Shown here in pieces: positions 6,022 to 26,777 of a stretch of DNA of 26,777 nucleotides; positions within the stretch are counted from its first letter, which is position 1; each line of letters begins with the position of its first letter. The notes below the pieces were generated by a model, which made no database searches, was not told the origin of the DNA, and saw only the letters and a list, made by a program, of their open reading frames with translations. The stretch comes from a virus. The stretch is from positions 1 to 26,777 of the IMG/VR virus record IMGVR_UViG_3300012920_000214. One strand, given 5' to 3'. A program made the position numbers and the translations under genes.

Positions 6022-8412
6022 TTAATTACCAGGACCAGAGTTACCAGCACTGTGAGGACGTGGTTGAATAACTAAGACTGGAGCATTGGATATGGTCTTT
6101 ACGTTTTGATTGATCCCAGTATTTACTTGTGGTGATTCTGATACGTTCATTCCTTGAGCTTGTGGGGTAAGAGTTTGAAAATTAATTCTTGGAGCAATCT
6201 GATTAAATGTTTCTTCTAAACTTTCAAGTTGTTCGATTGCGTCTTGTATACCTACTACTTCTACTTTAGCTATAAAACTTAAATCCTGATCTATTTTTCC
6301 AAGCTGTTCTAAATTAGATAATGCAGATTTTTCTTCAGGACCTAACTGAAAATCTTTTAAAAGACCTAAAGCTACTTTTGTATAAACGTCAGCATTTTTT
6401 TCTAAGTTAGCAGTTGACATCAACTCCAATCCACCAAATCCAAATATCATTCTATTTAAAGCTTCACTAAATGTTTCTAGACCTGGTCCTATAAGTGTTA
6501 ACGGTCTAAGTTCATCTGCTATTTTTTCGAATTTGCCTCTTCTATCACCGCCTTCTCCAATACCAAACCATGCAAAAAGATCTTTTCCTGAATTTATTAT
6601 TCCCTCTCCTAAATCAACCACCGCTCCTGTAACTGAATCAATGAGTTTACCACCAGTGAATATTGCTAGTCCACCACCAAGTGCTGCTAGTCCACCACCT
6701 GCTGCCGCTAGATTAGCGCCATCTATAGTATTGAATTCTGTTAAACCTCTTGCCACACCTTTCATTAGACTTTCAAGTTTGTCCCCATTACCTATTAAGC
6801 CCCCAAGAAAACCACCGACTGAAATACCTGTAAAGAATGCCCCAATAGCAAAACCAGCAGCGCCAATACCAAGTGTTGCACCTAATGTTGCACCACCTGC
6901 GACTAATGCGACTGGAGTTCCAACGCCAGTTGCTAATGAGCCACCTGCTACTGCACCGGCCCCTGCAAATATTCCGGTTAGTGCGAATAATCTTTTTGGT
7001 ATAGTATCAAGAGCTGATAAACCACTTGCAACGTTTGTCATTAAAGACCCAAACTTGGAACCATCTCCAGCAAATACTGTACTTAATGAACCAGACATTG
7101 ATATACCGGTGAAGAAAGCACCGATTGCTATACCAGCAAGAGCCATACCACCGGTTATACCAACCATTCCTGCTAAAGCTAATCTTCTTCCTTTACCTGT
7201 AAACTGCATTGCACCGGCCGTTCCAAATACTCCAGCACCTATTAGTGTTCCTAGAACTCTAAATGTATTTTCATTTTCGACAAGTGGATCTATTATTTTA
7301 ACTAATCCTTGAGTTGCATTTTGCATATTTGTTAGCTCAGAATCTCCAATATTCATTAGAAGATCACCTGCGGTTAGTCCTAAGAAGAAACCTGATATAC
7401 CTGCACCGACTGAGAATAAGCTTTTAGCAACACTTGAGTTTGCCATTGTAAACTTACTTCCGGTAAATGTACCTTTAAAAGTTTCTGCAGCTAATAATAA
7501 ACCAATTGTGGTAATAGTAGCGGGTGTCATAGCACCCAATGTCATGTTGAATCCTTTTACGGCTCTTACGTATGTACTGTAATCTGCTTCACCAAATAGG
7601 AATTCTACTCCCTCTATAGCTTTAGCACCAAGAAGGAATCCTGAGAAGAACATACCAATACCTAATCCAACACCAGCCATTGCAGCTGCAAATTTACCAG
7701 CCGTTGCAATACCAAACCCTTTACCTTTCCTAGTTAAGGCTACAGCAAAGAATCCAGCCGTAATTAGCGTCGCGATAGTAGCAGTGTCAAGATCTTTTAA
7801 TATGACACCAAGTGTTTTAGAAACCTCTTTAACTTGTTCGGTATCAATATCTTTCATGAAGCCGCCAACTAGTTCAACAGATTTAAATCCTAAGAGCAGT
7901 CCAGCTGCTCCTAATCCAACACCTAGACCTACACCAAGTAATGTAGATCCAATAGCTATTCCTATACCAGCTCCTGCAGAGGCTAGACCCCTAAACAAGA
8001 ATCCTAATCCAAATAATCCCCCAGCACCAAATCCTCCTTTTTTTCCGGCCTCTGCGTCTGCAGAAACAGTGACTGATGCTTCTATTCTTTTGAATACCTC
8101 TAATAATTCTTTTTCTCTTTCGGCTTTTTTAAGATCCTCGATTGAACGATCTTGGTCTTCATCTTTTTCAAGTCTAAGTAATTCAGTGTCTGATTTAAGC
8201 ATTTTTGTGTTAACATCTAAAATGCCTTGTAATATACTTTTAACACTAGTTAGTTCTGACGATATACTGCCTTCCAGCATCTCTGTTTGTGCAGAAAGTT
8301 TTTCTTTTATTTGTAAAAGTACGTCAAGCTCACTACTTGGAACTTCGCCGTTATCCATGTTCGGCTTATCCCTCTGCAGATCAGCGTCTTTTTTTATATC
8401 GTCTTCAGCCAT
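6022..8412 (-). CDS. Tape measure protein (gp29-like)
   Basis: A 796-residue protein, last gene of the leftward tail operon and two genes downstream of the gp26 frameshift locus, the usual place of a tail tape measure. Residues 1-120 are charged coiled coil (DLKKAEREKELLEVFKRI). Residues about 125-600 are Gly/Ala-rich hydrophobic helices arranged in five tandem repeats of 85-93 residues, with anchors at about 166, 251, 336, 427 and 520 (e.g. AIGAFFTGISMSG and AIGAFFTGISVGG). The C-terminal 180 residues are mixed and end in a polar Pro/Gly tail. T4 gp29 is 590 residues; the greater length suggests a longer tail if one residue spans about 1.5 angstrom (inference). AAGGAA upstream of the ATG supports the start. 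Assigned from composition and context, not detailed similarity to gp29. Confidence 0.8.
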   Translation of the reverse strand: MAEDDIKKDADLQRDKPNMDNGEVPSSELDVLLQIKEKLSAQTEMLEGSISSELTSVKSILQGILDVNTKMLKSDTELLRLEKDEDQDRSIEDLKKAEREKELLEVFKRIEASVTVSADAEAGKKGGFGAGGLFGLGFLFRGLASAGAGIGIAIGSTLLGVGLGVGLGAAGLLLGFKSVELVGGFMKDIDTEQVKEVSKTLGVILKDLDTATIATLITAGFFAVALTRKGKGFGIATAGKFAAAMAGVGLGIGMFFSGFLLGAKAIEGVEFLFGEADYSTYVRAVKGFNMTLGAMTPATITTIGLLLAAETFKGTFTGSKFTMANSSVAKSLFSVGAGISGFFLGLTAGDLLMNIGDSELTNMQNATQGLVKIIDPLVENENTFRVLGTLIGAGVFGTAGAMQFTGKGRRLALAGMVGITGGMALAGIAIGAFFTGISMSGSLSTVFAGDGSKFGSLMTNVASGLSALDTIPKRLFALTGIFAGAGAVAGGSLATGVGTPVALVAGGATLGATLGIGAAGFAIGAFFTGISVGGFLGGLIGNGDKLESLMKGVARGLTEFNTIDGANLAAAGGGLAALGGGLAIFTGGKLIDSVTGAVVDLGEGIINSGKDLFAWFGIGEGGDRRGKFEKIADELRPLTLIGPGLETFSEALNRMIFGFGGLELMSTANLEKNADVYTKVALGLLKDFQLGPEEKSALSNLEQLGKIDQDLSFIAKVEVVGIQDAIEQLESLEETFNQIAPRINFQTLTPQAQGMNVSESPQVNTGINQNVKTISNAPVLVIQPRPHSAGNSGPGN

Positions 8413-8423
8413 TTACTGTTCCT

Positions 8424-8804
8424 TTATTTTCCGCCGAATGCTTTACCAGCTTCGCTAATTCCAAATGCACCTAATGTGACTACTACAAACGATGTGTAGA
8501 TTGTTTCTGATACTTTTAAATCTATGTCCCATGCTAATGCAGTGACTAAGTCTGTAATACCAAATACAGTCATCAAGAAGAATGATATAAATCCTATAAT
8601 AGATTTTTCATTAATATCGTTATCATCTAAAAATAAGTCAATCATTTTTCTCTTAGGTGGTGCTAATTGAGCTTTAGCTTTTCTGGCTTCTTCTTGCATT
8701 TCGACAATAGTGTCTTCAGCTTTATCAAGCTTATCGATTAAAGACATATACTTGTCTAAATCTATTTCGACTTCGTTTCTACTGTTATCGTTATTCTCTG
8801 CCAT
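8424..8804 (-). CDS. Two-TM protein between tail chaperone and tape measure (126 aa)
   Basis: A 126-residue protein. Residues 1-60 are acidic then basic helix with coiled-coil character (YMSLIDKLDKAEDTIVEMQE). Two hydrophobic segments follow at about residues 68-91 (IIGFISFFLMTVFGITDLVT) and 100-118 (IYTSFVVVTLGAFGISEAG), ending in a short basic tail. The topology resembles a class II holin or a membrane-active tail component. AGGATAGGA upstream of the ATG is a good ribosome site. It sits four bases from the gp26 extension and eleven from the tape measure gene, so co-expression as a late tail gene is likely. Functional options are a holin, or a membrane protein delivered with the tape measure; the sequence cannot decide. 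Confidence 0.85.
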   Translation of the reverse strand: MAENNDNSRNEVEIDLDKYMSLIDKLDKAEDTIVEMQEEARKAKAQLAPPKRKMIDLFLDDNDINEKSIIGFISFFLMTVFGITDLVTALAWDIDLKVSETIYTSFVVVTLGAFGISEAGKAFGGK

Positions 8805-8808
8805 TTTC

Positions 8809-9039
8809 CTATCCTAATTTATTGTTGTTACTATTCTGTTCATCTATCCACTGCTTTAACATTGTAAGATAAACCTCCCGCTCCCACGGCATCATATTTT
8901 CAAGTTCAGTCAAACTATATTGATGATGCTGCATCAAAGCAAAATTAGTCTGATAATGATTAATTAAATTATCGTGCGAAAGGCTTAGGTAAAAAAACTT
9001 TGGAGACCTCTTAGCTCTATTTTGTTTTCTTTTCCACAT
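8809..9039 (-). CDS. gp51/T-like frame, probably translated as a -1 frameshift extension of gp26
   Basis: The open frame runs from ATG 9039, but that ATG lies inside gp26 and neither it nor the next in-frame ATG (8934) has a ribosome site, unlike neighbouring genes. It overlaps the end of gp26 by 55 bases in the -1 frame. At 8997-8991 gp26 reads AGT TTT TTT ACC TAA; slipping back one base at T_TTT_TTT gives TAC CTA AGC and continues for 60 codons to TAG 8811-8809, a fusion of about 296 residues. The extension holds YSLTELENMMPWEREVYL, which resembles small gp51-type hub-assembly proteins of T4-like phages. A weak AT-rich hairpin (8952-8973) lies 17 bases downstream of the slip site. By analogy with lambda G/GT this would be the T-like domain that recruits tube protein. 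Confidence 0.75.
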   Translation of the reverse strand: MWKRKQNRAKRSPKFFYLSLSHDNLINHYQTNFALMQHHQYSLTELENMMPWEREVYLTMLKQWIDEQNSNNNKLG

Positions 9040-9698
9040 TTATCACATTCATATTCCATATCGTATGTTAGCATTGGCATACTATTAAAAAAGTTTCCAA
9101 CCTTTTTAAATTGTTCTGTGGATAAGCCTTCGATGAATTCTTTAATTTCATCTTGATTATCATCTGTCGCTTTGTATACATTATCTTCATCAAATATATT
9201 TTGTACACTTGCAATAATTAATTCCATAATACCTTCTACTGTCTCAATTGCGTGTTCTCCAGACATTTTGAGCAGTGTCTTTGTAGTAGGATGCATCATC
9301 GTGATGCCTACTGTATCACTTAACTTAATTACTTTATCATCCGGATTCCAATCAGAAATTTTTATATCTTTGATATCAACAGAAACCTCATTCTTGTCGT
9401 GGTCACAATGTTGGCATTTTGCCATTAATTGAATCGTTTCCCCGACTGAGATACCTCTTAATTCTAAGAATATTTTTTCTACATCATATCCAGCTAAATC
9501 AGACATTTCTAATTCTGTTTCAATACATGCCTCAAGTAGCGATGATATTGCCATTGTTATTTGTTCAGCGTCTTGCGATTCTAAAGCTAACAATAACAAT
9601 TTTTCTTCTTTGACCGTGTAAGGTCTCATTATAATTTCCCTTCCATCAGACGGTAAAGTCGTCTTATGTTTAGGTAATTCAAGTTTTGGTAAAGCCAT
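8985..9698 (-). CDS. 26: gp26-like baseplate hub / tail assembly chaperone
   Basis: A 237-residue protein of the T4 gp26 family (T4_baseplate family, about 200 residues). The signature is an N-terminal PSDGREIIMRPYTVKEEKLL, then KIFLELRGISVGETIQLMAK followed by CQHC. A second cysteine pair CDKC lies near the C-terminus (about residues 222-225), so the four Cys could form a zinc site. In T4 gp26 is needed for baseplate hub assembly. Here it is encoded upstream of the tape measure gene and ends at a slippery site leading into an extension frame, which is the genetic layout of lambda-type tail assembly chaperones. TGGAGA upstream of the ATG supports the start. It is separated by 14 bases from the gp54-like gene. 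Confidence 0.82.
   Translation of the reverse strand: MALPKLELPKHKTTLPSDGREIIMRPYTVKEEKLLLLALESQDAEQITMAISSLLEACIETELEMSDLAGYDVEKIFLELRGISVGETIQLMAKCQHCDHDKNEVSVDIKDIKISDWNPDDKVIKLSDTVGITMMHPTTKTLLKMSGEHAIETVEGIMELIIASVQNIFDEDNVYKATDDNQDEIKEFIEGLSTEQFKKVGNFFNSMPMLTYDMEYECDKCGKENKIELRGLQSFFT
8991..8997 (-). promoter_or_regulatory. Slippery heptamer T_TTT_TTT for programmed -1 frameshift
   Basis: Seven consecutive T on the minus strand, phased as T TTT TTT in the gp26 frame, lie four bases (ACC plus the slip boundary) before the gp26 TAA. This is the canonical X_XXY_YYZ form with both codons Phe. The -1 frame is open from upstream of the site and stays open for 60 codons. The nearest downstream structure visible is only a 6-bp AT-rich stem. 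Confidence 0.7.
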
Positions 9699-9712: not shown

Positions 9713-10366
9713 TTATGTGAATAATCCTCCAAGGGTGTCACCAATAGCACCAATGGAAGAGGTTAAAGCGTTTTCTGGTTCATAATAATCATAAGACCAT
9801 CCAACGGTTAATTCGTGAATACTGTCTGTTGCAGTATTGTCTAAAGCCATTTCTCCAACCTGTGTTGGATAAGCGTTAACTAATTTTACTCCATATACAG
9901 GTTGTCCTTGTTTATTTACTTGTTGAATCCTAACATCTGTACAATAACCGCCATCACCTCTTTTATAATTTGCGCGGTAATCTCTTGTGTCAAATATATG
10001 ATTCATCCAGGAATCAAACATAGTCTTCATGTACATATCATTTGTAACATAGAAAACCATATTTATATCTCCATCTGATTTTCCTGTAATGTATTTTTTA
10101 CTTTCTCTTTGTGCTTGATATTCTGCACTGTTTAAACTTCTTGATGGGAAAGATGCGTTCTTACATAGGATACTAATATCTCTTGGATCGCTAATAAGTG
10201 ATTTCCAACTAAAACTATTATTAATTATATTACCTAATAGGTTAGTGGGATTTAGATTTAATAATGAAACTGTTGGAGGTGTAAAGATTACATTAAATCT
10301 ATTACTTGGTGCTACACCACCATGTTTTGCAAATTGAGCTTTCATTGTATCTAGTCTATTTGGCAT
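9713..10366 (-). CDS. gp54-like tail tube initiator (tail-tube-fold protein)
   Basis: A 217-residue protein with the tube-fold pattern shared by T4 gp19, gp48 and gp54: an N-terminal SNRFNVIFTPP strand, ICKNASFPSRSLN, an FYVTNDMYMKTMFDSWMNHI segment, a DVRIQQVNKQGQPVYGVKL hairpin and an HELTVGWSYDYYEPE closing strand. About 35 residues are inserted between the first strand and the CKNASFP motif, unlike the compact gp19 tube subunit (163 aa in T4), so I prefer the gp54 role of the ring that starts the tube. T4 gp54 is longer (320 aa). The start overlaps the upstream stop as TAATG. The main alternative is a tail tube gp19 paralogue; gp48, its presumed partner, begins the rightward arm. Confidence 0.65.
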   Translation of the reverse strand: MPNRLDTMKAQFAKHGGVAPSNRFNVIFTPPTVSLLNLNPTNLLGNIINNSFSWKSLISDPRDISILCKNASFPSRSLNSAEYQAQRESKKYITGKSDGDINMVFYVTNDMYMKTMFDSWMNHIFDTRDYRANYKRGDGGYCTDVRIQQVNKQGQPVYGVKLVNAYPTQVGEMALDNTATDSIHELTVGWSYDYYEPENALTSSIGAIGDTLGGLFT

Positions 10367-13436: not shown

Positions 13437-14906
13437 ATGGAAGCATCTTATAATATAGGGGCGGGTGGAAAACACGTTCACCCAAACAGCTATTCAATAA
13501 AACAGTTTGAACTGTTTCCCCACAATGTAAAATTTAGACCACCAGAAGCTGATGAAGAAGAAAGCCAAATAGTTTCCGAAACTAAGGCACTTACAAATTT
13601 AGCTATGACAGAATTAGGAGATGCTCTGAGTGGAGGTCCTTCAGCTGATATATTAGGCGCAGTCCAATCATTTTCATTTTCAGAAAGTATAACCCAACCA
13701 AGTATTATGGGAGAGGTTATTATTGTAGATGCTACTAATATGATTGAAAATTATAGAATACAAGGCGGTGAAAAAATAAGAATAGTAATAGTTCAGGATT
13801 TACCAGAAGAACAAAAAGAGATAATTCTTTCCTTATACATTTCTGAAGTATTGGGAATTCGAAAAAAGTCAATAGGTGGTCAAACATATAAATTAACCCT
13901 AGTTACAAAAGAACACTTTCAGAATGCACTAATGAAACTAAATAAACATTTTAGTGGTACCGCAGTTAATATAGTAGAAGGTATTATTAAATCAGAATTA
14001 GGTGGAAAGATTGCTGAGAGTTCTATTCCAGCACCTAGTGCTATTACTTCAATTATACCTGAAGGAACAATAAACCCAGATCTAGCGTCTTCAAATAAAC
14101 TATCAGGAATATATCCTAAATTAAGACCCTTTGATGCAATTAATTGGATTTTAAGAAACGCACATGATACACTTACACCTATTTTCTTATATCAAACATT
14201 ACAGGGATATCCAGGATATACATTAAAAAGTTATAGACAAATGATAGCAGAAGGTGTATATTCACAGTATAATAATAAACCTTTTGGACTAACTCAAACA
14301 ATAGAAGATAAGGATTTTTACGATTTACAAAGAGAAAAGATACAGAATTTTTCCGTAAATAGTTATTCTGATAAAATGCAAAAAGCAAGAAGGGGTGTTT
14401 ATGCTGCAACTGCAGAAGAAGTTTCTATTGATAATAAAAAGCATGAGACATACGAATATACGTATACAGATCCTACAAAATTAAATGATTTTAAACCTTT
14501 TACAATGACCGAATCTCTCGGTGGAGGATTTACTAGACTAAATGATAAAGAATATATTAACTCTAGAAACTATTTTATTAATAGAGATTCAGACTATCAT
14601 CAAAATCTTGCTACATTCCTTCCACAAACAGTTGCTTCTTTTGAAAATTTAAGTGATACATCTATGACAATCCAATTGTTTGGTGATCCAAACTTATCAC
14701 CTGGTAAAGTTGTAGAATTAAATATGTTTAAAGATCAGCCAGAAGGTACATTAGAAAAAGATAAAAATATAGACAATGCATTACTTGGCGGAAAATATCT
14801 AGTATCAGCTATTACACATTCCTTTGCAGTTACAGGATATTCAATGTCAGTTAATTTACTAAAAGATTCTAGTAGACTAAACTTTGAGGAGAGAACAGAA
14901 TTATGA
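13437..14906 (+). CDS. 27: gp27-like baseplate hub protein
   Basis: gp27 forms the trimeric hub ring that holds the gp5 spike. This 489-residue protein (T4: 391) shows the hub-fold pattern: an N-terminal beta domain (SFSFSESITQPSIMGEVIIV), a tube-like second domain (LYISEVLGIRKKSIGG, YKLTLVTKEHF), then LRPFDAINWILRNAHDT and PIFLYQTLQGYPGYTLKS as in gp27/gpD-type hubs. The C-terminal beta domain ends near LLGGKYLVSAITHSFAV. Its position directly before the gp5 OB-fold gene, with an ATGA overlap, supports the assignment. The ATG at 13437 has only a poor ribosome site and lies three bases behind gp53, so translation may depend on coupling. Confidence 0.78.
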   Translation: MEASYNIGAGGKHVHPNSYSIKQFELFPHNVKFRPPEADEEESQIVSETKALTNLAMTELGDALSGGPSADILGAVQSFSFSESITQPSIMGEVIIVDATNMIENYRIQGGEKIRIVIVQDLPEEQKEIILSLYISEVLGIRKKSIGGQTYKLTLVTKEHFQNALMKLNKHFSGTAVNIVEGIIKSELGGKIAESSIPAPSAITSIIPEGTINPDLASSNKLSGIYPKLRPFDAINWILRNAHDTLTPIFLYQTLQGYPGYTLKSYRQMIAEGVYSQYNNKPFGLTQTIEDKDFYDLQREKIQNFSVNSYSDKMQKARRGVYAATAEEVSIDNKKHETYEYTYTDPTKLNDFKPFTMTESLGGGFTRLNDKEYINSRNYFINRDSDYHQNLATFLPQTVASFENLSDTSMTIQLFGDPNLSPGKVVELNMFKDQPEGTLEKDKNIDNALLGGKYLVSAITHSFAVTGYSMSVNLLKDSSRLNFEERTEL

Positions 14907-15367
14907 GGAAAGACGGATTTTTAGGAAATGAGTTTCATTGGTTTACTGGGGAGATAATTAGTTACCATTCAAAAAATAAAGTAAGAGTATATTGTCACGG
15001 GTATCATCCAAAAGGTTTACCAGATAATCAATATCCATTTGCACACGTTATGCTTCCAACTACTGTAGGAGGAACAAGTGATAGGGCAGCTAACCATAGC
15101 TTAGAAAATGGTTCATGGGTGGTTGGATTCTTTCGTGATGGACCAAGTGCACAAGACCCTATTATTATAGGATCTCTTCCATCTACTGACGATGGAACTG
15201 GTTCTTCTGGTGATAAAAAAGTATATGAGTTTCACGGTCATAGATTAAGTTATGAAGATGGTGGTTCAATTATAATAAAACATCGAATAGGTTCTACAAT
15301 TGAAATGGATCAGCTTGGTGATATAAAACTTACACCTGCACTTGGTAAAAAAGTAATAATGCCATGA
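14903..15367 (+). CDS. 5: gp5-like spike/hub OB-fold protein without lysozyme domain
   Basis: T4 gp5 (575 aa) has an N-terminal OB-fold, a lysozyme domain and a long triple beta-helix. This protein has 154 residues: the OB-fold (GNEFHWFTGEIISYHSKNKV, YPFAHVMLPTTVGG, NGSWVVGFFRDGPSAQDPII) and then only about 50 residues of beta strands (YEFHGHRLSYEDGGSIIIKH, STIEMDQLGDIKLTP), enough for a short tip. No lysozyme motif or catalytic Glu-Asp-Thr set is present, and the gene ends in a clean ATGA overlap with the next gene, so this looks like the natural form rather than a truncation. It follows gp27 with an ATGA overlap. Any cell-wall-cleaving activity must come from another protein. Confidence 0.82.
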   Translation: MRKDGFLGNEFHWFTGEIISYHSKNKVRVYCHGYHPKGLPDNQYPFAHVMLPTTVGGTSDRAANHSLENGSWVVGFFRDGPSAQDPIIIGSLPSTDDGTGSSGDKKVYEFHGHRLSYEDGGSIIIKHRIGSTIEMDQLGDIKLTPALGKKVIMP

Positions 15368-16914: not shown

Positions 16915-18786
16915 ATGGCTACAGATTTAAAAATTACAGACTTAGACTTTGCAGATATTAAAGCAAATCTAAAAAATTACTTAAAACAACAAACAGTTTT
17001 TCAAGACTACGATTTCGATGGAGCTGGACTTAATGTTCTATTAGATGTTCTAGCTTATAATACCCATTACAATGCCATGGCAGCTCATTTATCATTAAAT
17101 GAAGCTTTCCTTGATTCTGCGCAGATAAGAGGAAACGCAGTATCAAGAGCTCGGATGTTAGGATACGTTCCTACTTCCGAGCAAGCGCCAAAGGCTCAAG
17201 TTGATATGGTTATAGATGCCACAGACGTTCCCGCAGAAAATAGACCAGCAGCTTTAACACTTAAAAGAGGAACAAGATTTTCATCTACAGTCACAGGATT
17301 ACCATTTCCTTTTGTTTCAACAGAGGCTTCAAATACAACTTTAGTTGGTACAACATATACATTTTCAAATGTTAAATTAGCAGAAGGTAATTATAACTCT
17401 ATTAAATACAGAGTTGATAATGATATCCAAATACAGAAACACCAAATACCACATAAGAATGTAGACATCAGCACACTTCGCGTACGTGTGCAGGCGAACG
17501 AAGAATCTACTTCTTTTGATGTTTATACTAAATTCGAAACATTATTAAATGTAGATTCATCTAGTAAGATATATCATATACAAGAAAATAATGCAGGATT
17601 CTATGAAGTATATTTCGGCGATGGGGTAATAGGTAATAAACCACAAAATAATAATATAGTTACATTGGATTATGTACACACATCAGGTCCAGAAGCTAAC
17701 GGAGCAGGAAAGGCAATCGGATCTGTTGGTGAATTTAGTTTAACTGATACAGTATTATCTGGTTCGTCTGAAACAATTACAACAAAGATCGTAGCTTCAG
17801 GTGGATCAGATCAAGAAGGTTTAGAATCTATTAGGTACAACGCACCTATTACATTCTCATCACAAAATAGAGCAGTTACAACAGACGATTATAGAGCAAT
17901 TATAAAAAATAACTTTTCAAATATTGCTTCTATTAATACTTGGGGAGGTGAAGATCAAGCCATTCCAGATTATGGTAAAGTCTTTATAGCTATTCGACCG
18001 AACACCGCAGAAAATTTAACAAGTGCAGAAAAAACAGAAATAATAAACACAATTTTAAAAGGTAAGAACGTAGTTTCTATTACTCCTGAAATAGTTAATC
18101 CAAATTATTCTAAGTTAGAGTTAGACGTAGTATTTAAATATAATCCAAACCTAACTGATAGAACTGCAGCAGATCTAGTAGCAGTCGTAAAAGATACATT
18201 AGATGATTATTCATTAAATCAATTAAATAGGTTTGATGGTATATTCAGACATTCAGAAGTATTAAGAAACATAGACAAAGCAGATCCAGCTATTGTTAAC
18301 TCAACAGTAAGACCTTATATGTTTCAAAATATTACACCAACAGCAAATCAATTAAATAACTTTACATTGACATTCCCAGGAACATTCTTTGTACCGGGCG
18401 GAGCTACTCAAAGTGTTATAGAATCTACTTCTTTCTCTCAAGGTGGAGTAGATAATTTCTTTAATGATAAAGCTATCGATGGTTCTACAGAAAGACAAAT
18501 ATTTGCTTATAAATTAGTTGGTGATAATAAAGTTACAACAATTGAAAATTGTGGAACAGTTAGTCCATCAACAGGAACAGTAACCTTAAATAATTTTAGC
18601 CCAGTAGACGTTACAGCAATTCGTGTAACAGTTCAACCTAATTCATTGGATATTGCTCCGAAGAGAGATCAGATATTAGAAATATCCGGTTCCAGATTAA
18701 CAGTAACAGCAGAAGAAGATCTAATCGCAACTGCTGGTTCTTCAGGTTCTATAGATTATACAACAACATCAAGGTTTAGATCATAA
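16915..18786 (+). CDS. 6: gp6-like baseplate wedge protein (Baseplate_J type)
   Basis: gp6 builds the wedge backbone and the iris-like inner ring in T4 (660 aa). This 623-residue protein has an N-terminal helical lead (DYDFDGAGLNVLLDVLAYNT, HYNAMAAHLSLNEAFLDSAQ), then the gpJ-family signature FGDGVIGNKPQNNNIVTLDY with SGPEANGAG, and GGSDQEGLESIRYNAPITF with AVTTDDYRAII. It ends in a Ser/Thr-rich beta domain (about 490-623). A GC-rich codon patch (about 17472-17502) encodes TLRVRVQANEE. An AGG site lies in the gp25 end and the stop overlaps the next start as TAATG. Confidence 0.92.
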   Translation: MATDLKITDLDFADIKANLKNYLKQQTVFQDYDFDGAGLNVLLDVLAYNTHYNAMAAHLSLNEAFLDSAQIRGNAVSRARMLGYVPTSEQAPKAQVDMVIDATDVPAENRPAALTLKRGTRFSSTVTGLPFPFVSTEASNTTLVGTTYTFSNVKLAEGNYNSIKYRVDNDIQIQKHQIPHKNVDISTLRVRVQANEESTSFDVYTKFETLLNVDSSSKIYHIQENNAGFYEVYFGDGVIGNKPQNNNIVTLDYVHTSGPEANGAGKAIGSVGEFSLTDTVLSGSSETITTKIVASGGSDQEGLESIRYNAPITFSSQNRAVTTDDYRAIIKNNFSNIASINTWGGEDQAIPDYGKVFIAIRPNTAENLTSAEKTEIINTILKGKNVVSITPEIVNPNYSKLELDVVFKYNPNLTDRTAADLVAVVKDTLDDYSLNQLNRFDGIFRHSEVLRNIDKADPAIVNSTVRPYMFQNITPTANQLNNFTLTFPGTFFVPGGATQSVIESTSFSQGGVDNFFNDKAIDGSTERQIFAYKLVGDNKVTTIENCGTVSPSTGTVTLNNFSPVDVTAIRVTVQPNSLDIAPKRDQILEISGSRLTVTAEEDLIATAGSSGSIDYTTTSRFRS

Positions 18787-20792
18787 TGCCACAATACGGT
18801 TCAGACTCGACAAACCCTAATTACATTGAAAGTGTAGGGTCATTAAAGAGAAAAACAAAAGAAGATATACGTATCGACTCTTTGATACCACCTGCCATTT
18901 TAGAAAATGCTGAAAATACTGATGGCTCTCCAGATATAAAAACTTTATTAGAACACTATTATAAGTTTATGAATATGGATGAGTTCATCTATACGGCAAC
19001 TGAAACTTTTACAGATTTAGTTGCTCCATCTGGAACATACGCAGGTAAAGGTAAAGCCGTGTTCAGAGTTTCAGATCCAAATAATGATAATAATGAATTC
19101 TTTCAAACAAATGCAGCAATGCAACTTAAATTTGGTGATACAGTTATACCAATAACAGGATTAAGTACACCGGTTATTTCAAACGGTAATGAATTACCTG
19201 GTTCTTTAAAAAATACAGCAGTTAGTACAGGTAAGACATTAACCATTGATAATTTAGATGCGACTTATGTAAACCAAAACGTAACACTAACAACACCAAT
19301 AACTTATTTTGTTGGTCCTGGACCTAGTTATATTCTTAACGCTATTGAAGAAGCTATGAATATAGATTATAATGATGATGTATATCTTTCAGCTATGCAA
19401 AAAGAAATAGCTTCAGCGATTCCTAAAAATTTAACAAGTGTAGAAAAAAGATCCTTATATAAAAACATTGTTGAATTATATAAGCTAAAAGGTTCATCAG
19501 ATTCGATAGAAATATTTTTTAGATTATTATTTGACGAAGAAACAGAAGTAGAATTTCCGTGGGATAAAACATTAATACCTTCAGAAGGTAATTGGGACGC
19601 AGGACTAAACAGATATTTAGATAACAAAGGGTTCTTATCTAATAATACTAAACTACAGGATTCTTTATTTTATCAAAAGTTTTCTTATAATATTAAAACA
19701 GGTAAAAACCTAAGCGAATGGAAACACGCATTTGATAGACTTATACACCCAGCTGGATTTATATTCTTTGGAGAAATTTTAATTCTTACCCAATTAACAC
19801 GTTCAGCTTTAGGTGATAATACTAGAATAAGTAGTACAGTATTAGGTGATGGATTAGTTCAAGATCCTAATAACCCAGGACAACAATTTAGAATTAGAAA
19901 TGTTTATCCAAGAACAAATAGAAAAACATTATCATCAATGCCAGGCGAACAACCTGGTGTTATAGGTTTAGAGGATTTACCATTATTAGTAGAAATGTTT
20001 GCCGCTACATTTATGCCAAACATTGTAGCAAAGATAGACAGAAACGCAAGATTTTCAGTAGATCTAAATAGTAATGGTACAATAGGCAGTATAAATATAG
20101 TAGATGGAGGATTTGGTTATCCAAGCGCACCAGCTATTACTATATCAGGAGATGGTGGTTCAGGTGCAGCAGCAACTTGTACAATCGATGAGAATGGTAT
20201 TGTAGAAACAGTTACAGTTGGACAAGCTGGATCTGGATATACAACAGCAAGTGCAAGTCCAGCAGCTAATCCAGATAAGGGTAAAGTCAAAACTATATTC
20301 TTAAGTAATCAAGCTGATAAGGAATATACTGTTAAACCTACTCTTATATTTGATGACCCAACTTCAGTTGATGCTGATGGTAATCCATTAGCTACTAACG
20401 TAACAGCAACAGGAACTGTTATATTAGATGGGGATATAGATAATACATCAGGAAAAATTACTGCGGTACAAATGGATGTATTTGGTAATGGATATATAAC
20501 TGATCCTAAGATTAGGATTAGCTCTGCTTCATCTGGAGAGCTTAGAGCCCAAGAGGTAAAAGAGATTGCAATAATAATGCTAAATCACGTAGCAAATATT
20601 GATCCTCATTCTCCAGGGTTTAGAACATTAACGGGTAATAGTTATTTTAACCGAAAACAAGATAACTATTATACAACTAAAAAATTTAGAGATGGATATC
20701 CTATCAGTTTTTATGGGGACAAAACCATAGAAAGTAGATCTGAAAGTGATATAAATAGATATAACGTGAAAACAATTATTAATCAGGAATAA
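18786..20792 (+). CDS. 7: gp7-like baseplate wedge protein with GYT-type repeats
   Basis: A 668-residue protein at the gp7 position between gp6 and gp8. The N-terminal half has the P2 gpI/gp7-type signature: SPDIKTLLEHYYKFMN, SLYKNIVELYKLKGSSDSIE and FFRLLFDEETEVEFPW, then FDRLIHPAGFIFFGEILI. Residues about 425-610 are a beta-rich region with degenerate repeats of the form GGFGYPSAPAITISGDGGSG, GSGYTTASASPAAN and GNGYITDPKIRISSA, shared with gp8. T4 gp7 is 1032 aa, so this is a shorter, differently decorated version. It starts in a TAATG overlap with gp6. A late promoter for gp8 lies in its last codons. Confidence 0.72.
   Translation: MPQYGSDSTNPNYIESVGSLKRKTKEDIRIDSLIPPAILENAENTDGSPDIKTLLEHYYKFMNMDEFIYTATETFTDLVAPSGTYAGKGKAVFRVSDPNNDNNEFFQTNAAMQLKFGDTVIPITGLSTPVISNGNELPGSLKNTAVSTGKTLTIDNLDATYVNQNVTLTTPITYFVGPGPSYILNAIEEAMNIDYNDDVYLSAMQKEIASAIPKNLTSVEKRSLYKNIVELYKLKGSSDSIEIFFRLLFDEETEVEFPWDKTLIPSEGNWDAGLNRYLDNKGFLSNNTKLQDSLFYQKFSYNIKTGKNLSEWKHAFDRLIHPAGFIFFGEILILTQLTRSALGDNTRISSTVLGDGLVQDPNNPGQQFRIRNVYPRTNRKTLSSMPGEQPGVIGLEDLPLLVEMFAATFMPNIVAKIDRNARFSVDLNSNGTIGSINIVDGGFGYPSAPAITISGDGGSGAAATCTIDENGIVETVTVGQAGSGYTTASASPAANPDKGKVKTIFLSNQADKEYTVKPTLIFDDPTSVDADGNPLATNVTATGTVILDGDIDNTSGKITAVQMDVFGNGYITDPKIRISSASSGELRAQEVKEIAIIMLNHVANIDPHSPGFRTLTGNSYFNRKQDNYYTTKKFRDGYPISFYGDKTIESRSESDINRYNVKTIINQE
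20750..20757 (+). promoter_or_regulatory. T4-type late promoter for gp8
   Basis: TATAAATAGATAT inside the 3' end of the gp7-like gene. The expected start at about 20763 gives a leader of about 33 bases with AGGA before ATG 20796. Confidence 0.7.
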
Positions 20793-22419: not shown

Positions 22420-25400
22420 ATGCCAATAACTAAAGTTAAAAACTATGCCATAGCACCATATCATGATGACTATGACGAAAGTAAAAATTATCATAGGATC
22501 TTGTTTAGACCTGGATTTGCAGTACAAGCTAGGGAGTTAACACAACTACAAACAGCGTTACAATCACAAATAGACAGAGTCGGTCAATATAGTTTTAATG
22601 ATGGTTCAAGAGTCGTTGGTGGTAAAGTTAGTATTGATACAGAAAGAGATTTTGTTAAGTTAACTTCTACTACTAACGTTTCAGAATTTGTAGGAACAAC
22701 TATTACAGGTGGAACAAACGGTGTTCAAGCCGATGTACTAGAAGCGGTTGCTGCTACTGGTAGTGACCCAGATACACTTTATATAAAATATAAAAGTTCT
22801 GGTACTGGGAAAACAACTAAGCTATTTGCAAATGGCGAAAGTATTACAAATGGTTCTAAAACAGCAACTCTCGCATCTTCGGCAGCGACCGGAAAGGGAT
22901 CGAGGGTAAGTATTGAAGAAGGTGTATACTTTATTTCTGGTACAATGGCTTATGTGGCATCTGAATCTTTAATTTTAGACAAATATACAAACACACCTAA
23001 TTATATTATAGGTTTAAAAGTCACAGAGTCATTAGTAGACAGTTCAACAGATAACACATTAGTAGATAATGCGCAAGGTACACCTAACTTTGCAGCTCCA
23101 GGCGCACACAGATATAAAATTGGTACTGAACTAATTAAAGAATCTTTAACATCTCCAAACGCAACACATAATAATTATATTATATTAATGAAAATTAAGA
23201 ATGGTGTTGTACAAGTAGAGACACAAGATAGAACAGCTAATACAGAATTAACTACAAGATTAGCTAGACGAACACACGAAGAATCTGGTAACTATACGGT
23301 CACACCTTTATCATTAGATGTAAGAGAACATTTAAATGATGAAGCAGGAAACAATGGTTTCTTAACAGCTGGAAGTGGTGGATTAGCTACTAAACTGGCA
23401 ATCGGGGTCGAGCCCGCCATCGCGTACGTGCAAGGGTATAGATTAGAAAACTTAGCTACAAAATATGTTGCAGTAGATAAACCAAGAACACACGTAAATG
23501 AAAATGATGTAAACACATCTTTACCAGTTGGTAACTATGTTAAGGTTACTTTAAGCACTGTTTTAGGTATGCCAGATATTAATGGTTATAAAACATGTGA
23601 ATTAAGAAACAATTCAAATACAAAGATTGGTACAGCAAGAATAAGAGGTCTTGAAGAATTCTCATCTACTATCGCAAAACTATTCTTATTTGATATAGTT
23701 ATGGATTCTGGTCAAACTTGGTCTAACGTAAATAAAGTATTCCAGGATAATGCTGATTCAAACCATCAGGACTTTTCAGCAACTATGACAGCAACAACCA
23801 ACAATCCAAGATTCGATGTTGGCCAAAACAATTTAGTATTTAAATTACCATTTGATGCAGTAAAAAGTTTAAGAGATTCAACTCCAACAGACGAATTAAA
23901 ATATCAAGTTAGAGTACAATTACAAGGACAAGTATCTGGTACAGGAACAAGTGCTAAAGTTACTTTCTCTAACTTACCTGGAACATTAGCATCACAATCA
24001 GATATATTCTTAACAGTTGGAAATAATGCAGCAGTTGCAGTACCAGTTGGAGCAGTTAATACTAGTGTTGGTGCTGGTAACTTAGAAATACAAAACAATT
24101 CTAATCTAATTTCTACTATGGCTTCTGGCACACCATACGTTCAAGCAATTGCTACTATCGCAAAATCAGCATCTAGTGGATTAAGAAGTAAAACAAAAAC
24201 AACACAATCAGCAACTAATTTCTCATTTGATGGAACAAACCCTGTTCCTTTAAACCAAACAGACGTTTTAAAAATTAACACACTAACAGTTGGTGGTGTA
24301 GACTTTAAAGATAAATTTACTTTAGATAACGGTCAAAGAGATAACTACTATGAAGAAGCTAGACTTATCCCAATCGGATCACAAGCAGCTGCAACATTAA
24401 GTGTTTCATTTGATTACTATGAACACGGAGAAGGAGATTATTTCTCAGTAGATTCATATCACAACAAAACTTTGGCAGCTCAAGGTAATGCTACAGAAAT
24501 TGCTAAGTACGAAGAGATTCCAGTATTTAACGGATCAAACGGTACTGTCGAGCTTAGAGATTGTATAGACTTTAGGCCTACAAAATCTTTTGCAGGTTCT
24601 ATTACAGCAGGTCAAGAATTTACAACAGGAACTGGCGCATCTAATAATCCAGCCGATACACCTAAACCAGGTTCAGTAGGAATAGCAGATATATCACACT
24701 ATCTAGGAAGAATTGATAAACTTTATATGGATAGAGAAGGCGCATTTAAAATTATAAGTGGTGTTGCTGATACAAATCCAAAAGTACCAGAAGATGTACC
24801 TGATAGTATGACAATATTTAATTTACATTATCAACCGTATGTGTTTGATAAGAACGATTTAGTTCCAGTAAAAATAGATAACAAACGTTATACTATGAAA
24901 GATATTGGTGGATTAGATAAAAGAATTAAGAACTTAGAATACTATACTTCACTATCACTATTAGAAAAAGATGCACAGAGTATACAGATTCCAGATGGAA
25001 CAGACGAAAGATTAAAAAATGGTATTGTAGTTGATGGATTCTTTGGACACAATGTTGGTAATGTAACACATCCAGACTATCACGTTTCAATAGACAAATC
25101 AAATGGTATATTAAGACCTATGTTCTATGAAGATAATGTTAACCTTGTTAAAACCGCTACACAACATAGTGGAATGAAAACAGGTTCATTAGTTCATTTA
25201 CCATACACAGAAACAACTTATATAGATCAACCATACGCAACAACATCTGAATTTGTTAACCCATACAATGTATTTGTTTGGGGTGGAGATATGAAACTAT
25301 CACCAGAATCAGATGAGTGGAAAGATACAGATACAAGACCAGACGTTGTTATTGATGACGAAGGTGTATATGACCAATTAGTTCAAATGGCAGATGAATC

Positions 25401-26777
25401 CGGTATATTAGGAACAGTCTGGAACGAATGGGAAACAAACTGGACAGGCGTAGAGTCAAGTACAACTACAGAAACAAATTGGATTGACGAAGGAGAAGGA
25501 ACAGTTTGGAGCAGATTAAGACGTAGAAGAAATAGACAAGGGTTTGCAACAACATCTGTTACTGCTACAACTACTACACAACAACAATCTAGGTCAGGTA
25601 TAAGAACAACCGTAGTACCTGATACACAATTAAAAGAATTAGGTTCAAGAGTCGTAGAAACAAACTTTATACCTTTTATTAGGTCAAGAGAGATATTCTT
25701 TAAAGCAGAAAGATTAAAACCAAATACTAAAATGTTTGCTTTCTTTAATGGAACAAACGTGACTGACTTCTGTTCAGAGACTGGCGGTTATAAAGAATGG
25801 TCAGACGAAACTAATCTAGTTAGCTATAGAGGAGCAACGGTTCATTCGGCTAATACAGATTTAATTACAGACGCATCAGGTAAAGTAGAAGGTTCATTTA
25901 GAATACCACATAACTCTACACTGAAATTTAAAACAGGTACAAGAGAATTTAGATTAACAGACGATTCATCAAATAATAAATCAAACGAAACAACATTTGC
26001 AGAAGCATTATATCACGCACAAGGTTTACTTGAAGTAAAAGAAAATGTTATAATGTCAACAAAGGTACCTAGATTCGTATCAACAGAATTAACTGATGAA
26101 AGAGTAATTGAAGAAACATCTATTACCAGATTTACAGAACCAGTAGAATGGGTAGATCCATTAGCACAAACATTTATTATTGATACAGTTGGAGGTATAT
26201 TTGCTTCATCAGTAGATCTATTCATTCAGGCAAAAGACGCAGCTATACCACTAAACGTTTCTATACGTTCAGTTGAAAATGGTATACCAACACAGCAAAT
26301 CGTTCCTGGTTCAAGTGTAAACGTTTATCCTGATTCAAGTATGGGAACATCAACAGATGGTTCAACAGCATATAATATTCCGTTTGAACACCCAATCTAT
26401 CTTGGACAAGACCAAGAATATGCTATTGTATTAATATCCAACTCTGATGCTTACAAAGTATTCATAGCAGAAACAGGTGGATTTGATTTACAAAACCAAG
26501 CTAACAGGGTAACAAAACAACCATACAACGGTGTATTCTTTACATCACAGAACGCATCTACTTGGACACCAGAACAAACAAAAGATCTTAAGTTTAAATT
26601 AAAAAGATGTAGTTTCTCACAGACATCAGGTACAGTTACATTACAAAATGATAAAGTACCAGCTAGGATATTACCAGGTAATCCATTTAACTTTATTTCA
26701 AATAGTACAAATACTGTTATAAGAGTAAATCATCCAAACCATGGTATGTACGGATCAAACAGTAAAGTTACATTGGA
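22420..26777 (+). CDS. Giant DUF4815-type structural protein (partial, runs off the window)
   Basis: The frame is open from ATG 22420 (GAGAGAAA upstream) to the window end, at least 1452 residues. The N-terminus has the signature NYHRILFRPGFAVQARELTQ followed by LQTALQSQIDRVGQYSF, which I associate with DUF4815 in marine T4-like phages. Residues about 88-165 hold a TITGGTNGVQADV beta module similar to that in gp53 and gp8. At about 1029-1062 a very basic WSRLRRRRNRQG is followed by a Thr/Gln-rich linker (TSVTATTTTQQQS), a probable domain boundary; beyond it come large beta-rich domains (about 1240-1350, WVDPLAQTFIIDTVGG). It sits where T4 has gp9-gp12, so a baseplate-periphery or fibre-attachment role is likely (inference). 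GC-rich codon patches occur at about 22869-22908 and 23401-23435. Confidence 0.78.
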   Translation, partial: MPITKVKNYAIAPYHDDYDESKNYHRILFRPGFAVQARELTQLQTALQSQIDRVGQYSFNDGSRVVGGKVSIDTERDFVKLTSTTNVSEFVGTTITGGTNGVQADVLEAVAATGSDPDTLYIKYKSSGTGKTTKLFANGESITNGSKTATLASSAATGKGSRVSIEEGVYFISGTMAYVASESLILDKYTNTPNYIIGLKVTESLVDSSTDNTLVDNAQGTPNFAAPGAHRYKIGTELIKESLTSPNATHNNYIILMKIKNGVVQVETQDRTANTELTTRLARRTHEESGNYTVTPLSLDVREHLNDEAGNNGFLTAGSGGLATKLAIGVEPAIAYVQGYRLENLATKYVAVDKPRTHVNENDVNTSLPVGNYVKVTLSTVLGMPDINGYKTCELRNNSNTKIGTARIRGLEEFSSTIAKLFLFDIVMDSGQTWSNVNKVFQDNADSNHQDFSATMTATTNNPRFDVGQNNLVFKLPFDAVKSLRDSTPTDELKYQVRVQLQGQVSGTGTSAKVTFSNLPGTLASQSDIFLTVGNNAAVAVPVGAVNTSVGAGNLEIQNNSNLISTMASGTPYVQAIATIAKSASSGLRSKTKTTQSATNFSFDGTNPVPLNQTDVLKINTLTVGGVDFKDKFTLDNGQRDNYYEEARLIPIGSQAAATLSVSFDYYEHGEGDYFSVDSYHNKTLAAQGNATEIAKYEEIPVFNGSNGTVELRDCIDFRPTKSFAGSITAGQEFTTGTGASNNPADTPKPGSVGIADISHYLGRIDKLYMDREGAFKIISGVADTNPKVPEDVPDSMTIFNLHYQPYVFDKNDLVPVKIDNKRYTMKDIGGLDKRIKNLEYYTSLSLLEKDAQSIQIPDGTDERLKNGIVVDGFFGHNVGNVTHPDYHVSIDKSNGILRPMFYEDNVNLVKTATQHSGMKTGSLVHLPYTETTYIDQPYATTSEFVNPYNVFVWGGDMKLSPESDEWKDTDTRPDVVIDDEGVYDQLVQMADESGILGTVWNEWETNWTGVESSTTTETNWIDEGEGTVWSRLRRRRNRQGFATTSVTATTTTQQQSRSGIRTTVVPDTQLKELGSRVVETNFIPFIRSREIFFKAERLKPNTKMFAFFNGTNVTDFCSETGGYKEWSDETNLVSYRGATVHSANTDLITDASGKVEGSFRIPHNSTLKFKTGTREFRLTDDSSNNKSNETTFAEALYHAQGLLEVKENVIMSTKVPRFVSTELTDERVIEETSITRFTEPVEWVDPLAQTFIIDTVGGIFASSVDLFIQAKDAAIPLNVSIRSVENGIPTQQIVPGSSVNVYPDSSMGTSTDGSTAYNIPFEHPIYLGQDQEYAIVLISNSDAYKVFIAETGGFDLQNQANRVTKQPYNGVFFTSQNASTWTPEQTKDLKFKLKRCSFSQTSGTVTLQNDKVPARILPGNPFNFISNSTNTVIRVNHPNHGMYGSNSKVTL

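Follow-up and report, generated by a model that had tools for sequence, protein, structure and literature searches.

Does translation of the gene 26 homologue (gp26) in this uncultivated marine T4-like phage always end at the gp26 stop codon, or do some ribosomes pass into the frame behind it? The window, meaning the whole analysed stretch of 26,777 nucleotides, carries gp26 on the minus strand at 8985–9698 (237 aa), and the gene ends CTA AGA GGT CTC CAA AGT TTT TTT ACC TAA. AGT occupies 8999–8997, the two TTT codons 8996–8994 and 8993–8991, and, after ACC, the zero-frame stop TAA 8987–8985. The seven T (8997–8991) are in the phase T_TTT_TTT, an in-phase X_XXY_YYZ heptamer of the kind that marks -1 frameshift cassettes, and one sense codon separates them from the stop. 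The -1 frame, closed by a stop 45 nt 5' of the heptamer, is open across it and for 60 more codons, up to a stop at 8811–8809. The site is as the preliminary description had read it, and a -1 join of both frames is predicted to give a fusion of 296 residues (8809–9698, minus strand), with the junction ...LQSFF|YLSLS... and the end ...LQSFFYLSLSHDNL...

Tail assembly chaperones (TACs) bind the tape measure protein, are absent from the virion and have a long form at a few per cent of the short one. The general G/GT system was reportedly established by Xu et al. in 2004 and by others. Lambda gpG/gpGT and P2 E/E+E' likewise comprise a short and a -1-shifted long form encoded between the tail tube and tape measure genes; the lambda heptamer is G_GGA_AAG, against T_TTT_TTT in the window. 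The chaperones of T4-like phages are said to have been identified by Vladimirov, Gautam and Davidson (Virology 2022), whose abstract reportedly names genes 26 and 51. Citing papers credit that work (Virology 566:9-15) with poly-T frameshift signals in the TAC-N genes of T4-like phages (PMC12846349), and with the finding that in some T4-like phages a short gene and a separate fused gene take the place of a frameshift (PMC10274946). The gp26 of the window belongs to the same gene family, as an uncultivated marine member with no difference in principle. Already known are the frameshift principle and the unification of T4 hub-assembly factors with the general tail chaperones, which the preliminary description proposed rightly, though not as a novelty, since it was published in 2022. 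The present comparison of sequences adds a further member of this kind, puts figures on a synonymous-codon constraint, and points to an SD-like element 7–11 nt upstream that appears to be selected beyond the protein sequence. These results give independent, quantitative support for placing gp26 and gp51, the 'hub assembly' proteins of T4, in the general tail chaperone system.

The reading preferred here, with a probability of about 0.93, is that gp26 represents TAC-N, the short form of the tail assembly chaperone, and that a minority of ribosomes slip -1 at T_TTT_TTT to produce a long form (TAC-NC). Translation of gp26 to its stop would yield TAC-N. A minority of ribosomes at the gene end would slip back one base, bypass the stop and add a helical domain of 60 residues (TAC-C, annotated as gp51 in relatives; 8809–8994, minus strand). 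The slip would most likely proceed by tandem re-pairing of two Phe-tRNAs, consistent with the TTTTTTN (T6N) consensus described below, and is probably assisted by the SD-like AAGAGG 9 nt upstream. By analogy with lambda G/GT, many TAC-N and few TAC-NC molecules would coat the tape measure protein, the C domain of TAC-NC would recruit the tail tube protein, and both forms would leave the finished tail. Comparison establishes the site and its selective upkeep, the coding nature of the extension and the kinship with tail assembly chaperones; the slippage itself, its rate, the binding partners and the chaperone function are what we infer. The programmed -1 frameshift at the gp26 end that the preliminary description had proposed is strongly supported by comparative evidence from about 90 related viruses.

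A scan of IMG/VR yielded 76 gp26 loci, to which isolates were added (phages of Vibrio, Rhizobium, Sinorhizobium, Stenotrophomonas, Xanthomonas, Delftia and Pseudomonas, cyanophages and one pelagiphage), and the combined set held 94 genes in 60 gp26 clusters (<85% identity). All IMG/VR loci with the gene end present have an in-phase TTTTTTT, TTTTTTC or TTTTTTA among the last codons. BLAST detected a -1-frame extension in each of these but one (L043), where it is visible on direct reading. In-phase T6N stands at the gp26 end in 54 of the 60 clusters and at 3 of the 13,472 in-phase positions elsewhere in these genes, a difference far beyond chance; the heptamer and the -1 overlap, which the preliminary description had suggested following through aligned homologues, are both conserved. 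The base after the six T is T in 31 of the 54 clusters, C in 19, A in two and G in two. Two rhizobial phages (L092 and L094) have T_TTT_TTG at the gp26 end, where the A-site Leu codon re-pairs less well. Six Ackermannviridae-type clusters (L086, L087, L088, L089, L099 and L102) keep the -1 extension and have, instead of T6N, the short runs CTTTTT, CTTTTC or ATTTTC, so that slippage of a single tRNA, or recoding of another kind, would be needed there.

The codons around the slip site are more uniform than the protein requires. The codon preceding the first Phe of the heptamer ends in T in all 54 clusters, though C (or more) would be synonymous there, and the first Phe codon is always TTT (54/54). 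Calculated from the codon usage of each locus, the joint synonymous probability is about 1e-26 if the clusters are independent, a figure that is no strict P value, given their shared ancestry. Among control pairs from the gene bodies the same pattern was found in 63 of 251 xF and 16 of 43 FF pairs. On these codon counts, the protein motif (D/S/N)FF is by itself insufficient to account for the T6N constraint.

For the extension, a match to phrog_634 ('baseplate hub assembly catalyst', gp51) was obtained at 8.9e-25, and one to the C-terminal end of phrog_150 as well, which means that the phrog_150 family includes fused proteins. It is 53–69 codons long in the T6N clusters, and F1, P36 and E38 are invariant in 38 aligned loci. 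Substitutions counted over 26 disjoint pairs of relatives are distributed 330:127:52 among -1-frame positions 3:1:2, and by this measure the extension evolves as coding sequence. Extensions are homologous from the heptamer onwards, while the position of the -1 stop before it varies between -3 and -159. With the -1 frame closed at such varying points, the joint lies at the heptamer, with no -1 coding before it. The compared sequences contain two overlapping frames, and a frameshift close to where the first gene ends would join them. A model of the extension has a pLDDT of 82.6, and a search of it against BFVD returned homologous extensions, weak matches and nothing else.

Most records annotate the extension as a separate small gp51, which would be translated by termination-reinitiation or internal initiation. 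Such annotations are numerous, and a one-base TAATG or TGATG overlap is present in phiM9, N34, ValKK3, YB07, W14 and others. In roughly one cluster in four, the -1 frame has an ATG no more than 18 nt past the heptamer's first T, and in some of these relatives translation could also start near the junction. However, in 28 of the 54 clusters, the window included, the -1 frame has no ATG, GTG or TTG from -30 to +45. The nearest ATGs of the window lie outside this range, at -42 (9039) and +63 (8934) relative to the heptamer, and neither has a proper ribosome site: the anti-SD pairing before 9039 is weak and mis-spaced (-3.3 kcal/mol at 23 nt), and there is no such pairing before 8934 (+0.4 kcal/mol). 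By comparison, gp26 itself has -6.4 kcal/mol at 17 nt, and the two genes after it -4.4 and -5.6 kcal/mol at 11–15 nt. The preliminary description was therefore right that these two ATGs have no usable ribosome site, but not that the neighbouring genes all have one, the sites of gp2 (-3.2 kcal/mol) and gp4 (-2.4 kcal/mol) being likewise weak. The P-HM2 and Mosig annotations start the gene at internal ATGs and thereby truncate the conserved domain; in T4 gp51 this domain is joined to one resembling gp26, and a separate gene leaves the T6N constraint unexplained. A free-standing gp51 is, on this balance, very unlikely. Cyanophage gp51 was noted to lack its first 200 residues, and this was left unexplained (PMC3037559); a frameshift fusion would explain the apparent truncation of about 200 residues. 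In many records the extension is wrongly annotated or missed altogether.

The same fusion would arise if RNA polymerase, not the ribosome, slipped on the T run, giving some mRNAs with an extra U that are read straight into the extension. The window, with seven T, would allow this, but the run is broken after six in 23 of the 54 clusters (19 T6C, 2 T6A and 2 T6G), a length that is short for polymerase and suits tandem tRNA slippage, and the SD-like element fits ribosomes. Polymerase slippage is accordingly rated as most improbable. Runs of seven T are also error-prone in sequencing, and a homopolymer error could have split one gene, a concern raised by the preliminary description; its probability is negligible because the same arrangement is shared by some 70 contigs and 20 or so isolate genomes, often as T6C and not T7.

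The assignment of gp26 as a chaperone of the TAC-N type draws on family and fold. gp26 matches PF12322 at 3.1e-56 and 190.9 bits, above the Pfam gathering score of 24.5, and phrog_150 at 1e-60. Its AlphaFold model has a pLDDT of 91.8. Foldseek with this model against the PDB gave nothing at E<0.001 (2OB9 had an E of about 1 and a probability of 0.5), and sequence searches of the PDB with gp26, T4 gp51 and the gp26 profile found no credible relative. Realignment of the model to PDB chains gave Z scores of 8.3 for 3FGX, 7.5 for 3KLU and 7.4 for 2OB9, all three over residues 1–95, the next chain being at 3.5. These three, Rbstp2171 (3FGX), YqbN (3KLU) and HK97 gp13 (2OB9), have been called phage tail assembly chaperones (PMC9603447). 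A Z near 8 is moderate alone and carries weight here because no other chain stands out and these three are all chaperones; by its best three matches the model has the TAC-N fold. The aligned part shares 6–13% sequence identity with these proteins, and gp26 is about twice as long, with an extra C-terminal region containing Cys pairs past the TAC-like domain. Sequence and model together support gp26 as TAC-N and the predicted frameshift product as TAC-NC. The roles given to them in the preliminary description, G-like for gp26 and T-like for the extension, are supported by heptamer conservation, synonymous constraint, missing starts in about half of the clusters, gene order (tail tube, chaperone, putative tape measure) and the fold match.

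In T4, PF12322 is matched over its full length by both gp26 and gp51, the latter running on into the extension; the gp51 proteins of T4 and RB49 match phrog_150 end to end. At the junction, T4 gp26 stops at GLKEFFELL and T4 gp51 continues (21 residues not shown)...YSLNSISKMIPAER. According to this alignment, the C-terminal part of T4 gp51 is the same domain that marine phages would reach by shifting, and the two T4 proteins are paralogues, gp51 having the extension in frame. The proposal that gp51 supplies the T-like part holds to this extent, but T4 gp51 is more than a T part, being a full gp26 paralogue with the T part added. T4 and RB49 thus have two separate genes, divergently oriented, where the window shares PF12322 and the C-terminal domain but has a predicted frameshift. 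In a tree, the gp26 and gp51 sequences of three phages group together (99/99) with long branches, and the Vibrio phages ValKK3 and V07, also Straboviridae, retain the frameshift form. The simplest reading of these relationships is gene duplication in place of frameshifting in the T4 lineage.

The candidate stimulator in the window is the SD-like AAGAGG at 9007–9012 (minus strand), 9 nt before the heptamer. In 38 of the 54 clusters the core of such an element ends 7–11 nt before the heptamer. Over the seven codons upstream, the mean anti-SD energy is -5.44 kcal/mol, against -4.50 kcal/mol for synonymous re-codings, of which 0 of 300 were as low (54 clusters, not independent). Part of the signal comes from conserved K/R/E-Gly codons; the re-coding comparison corrects for these, and shared ancestry remains. 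RNA structure 3' of the site in the window was no better than in shuffled sequence (z -0.4 to +0.8). Judged by the energies, AAGAGG probably aids frameshifting in the window. A wider proposal, to which we give even odds, is that marine T4-like phages tune the frameshift by an SD-like element 7–11 nt before the heptamer that is selected beyond protein needs, and that the cassette was replaced by gp26/gp51 duplication once, in the T4 lineage.

A tail tube homologue (9713–10366, minus strand; phrog_45, 4.9e-35) lies directly upstream of gp26. Downstream, a protein of 796 aa (6022–8412, minus strand) is a putative tape measure protein by its length and position only, with a related ORF in the gp26 locus L001. 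It had no PHROG or Pfam match, and BLAST found no link to T4 gp29 or the equivalent ORFs of other phages. Between it and the chaperone, a 126-aa protein of no known family (8424–8804, minus strand) has two hydrophobic stretches in its second half that look membrane-spanning by eye. This protein is 99% identical in L001, against 84% for gp26 and 53% for the N-terminal part of the tape measure protein, which may reflect either mosaic exchange or strong constraint.

The T4-like genes around gp26 comprise the tail tube gene, gp2, gp4, a gp48-like cap, wedge and hub genes, a gp32-like protein and a helicase loader. The gp5-like hub protein (14903–15367, plus strand; 154 aa) matches much longer hub/lysozyme families in their N-terminal part only, and the lysozyme domain is absent from its ORF. 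A 668-aa protein (18786–20792, plus strand) has piecemeal matches to numerous wedge and virion structural families, as a mosaic of repeated domains. An open frame of 1452 aa (22420–26775, plus strand) runs off the contig end.
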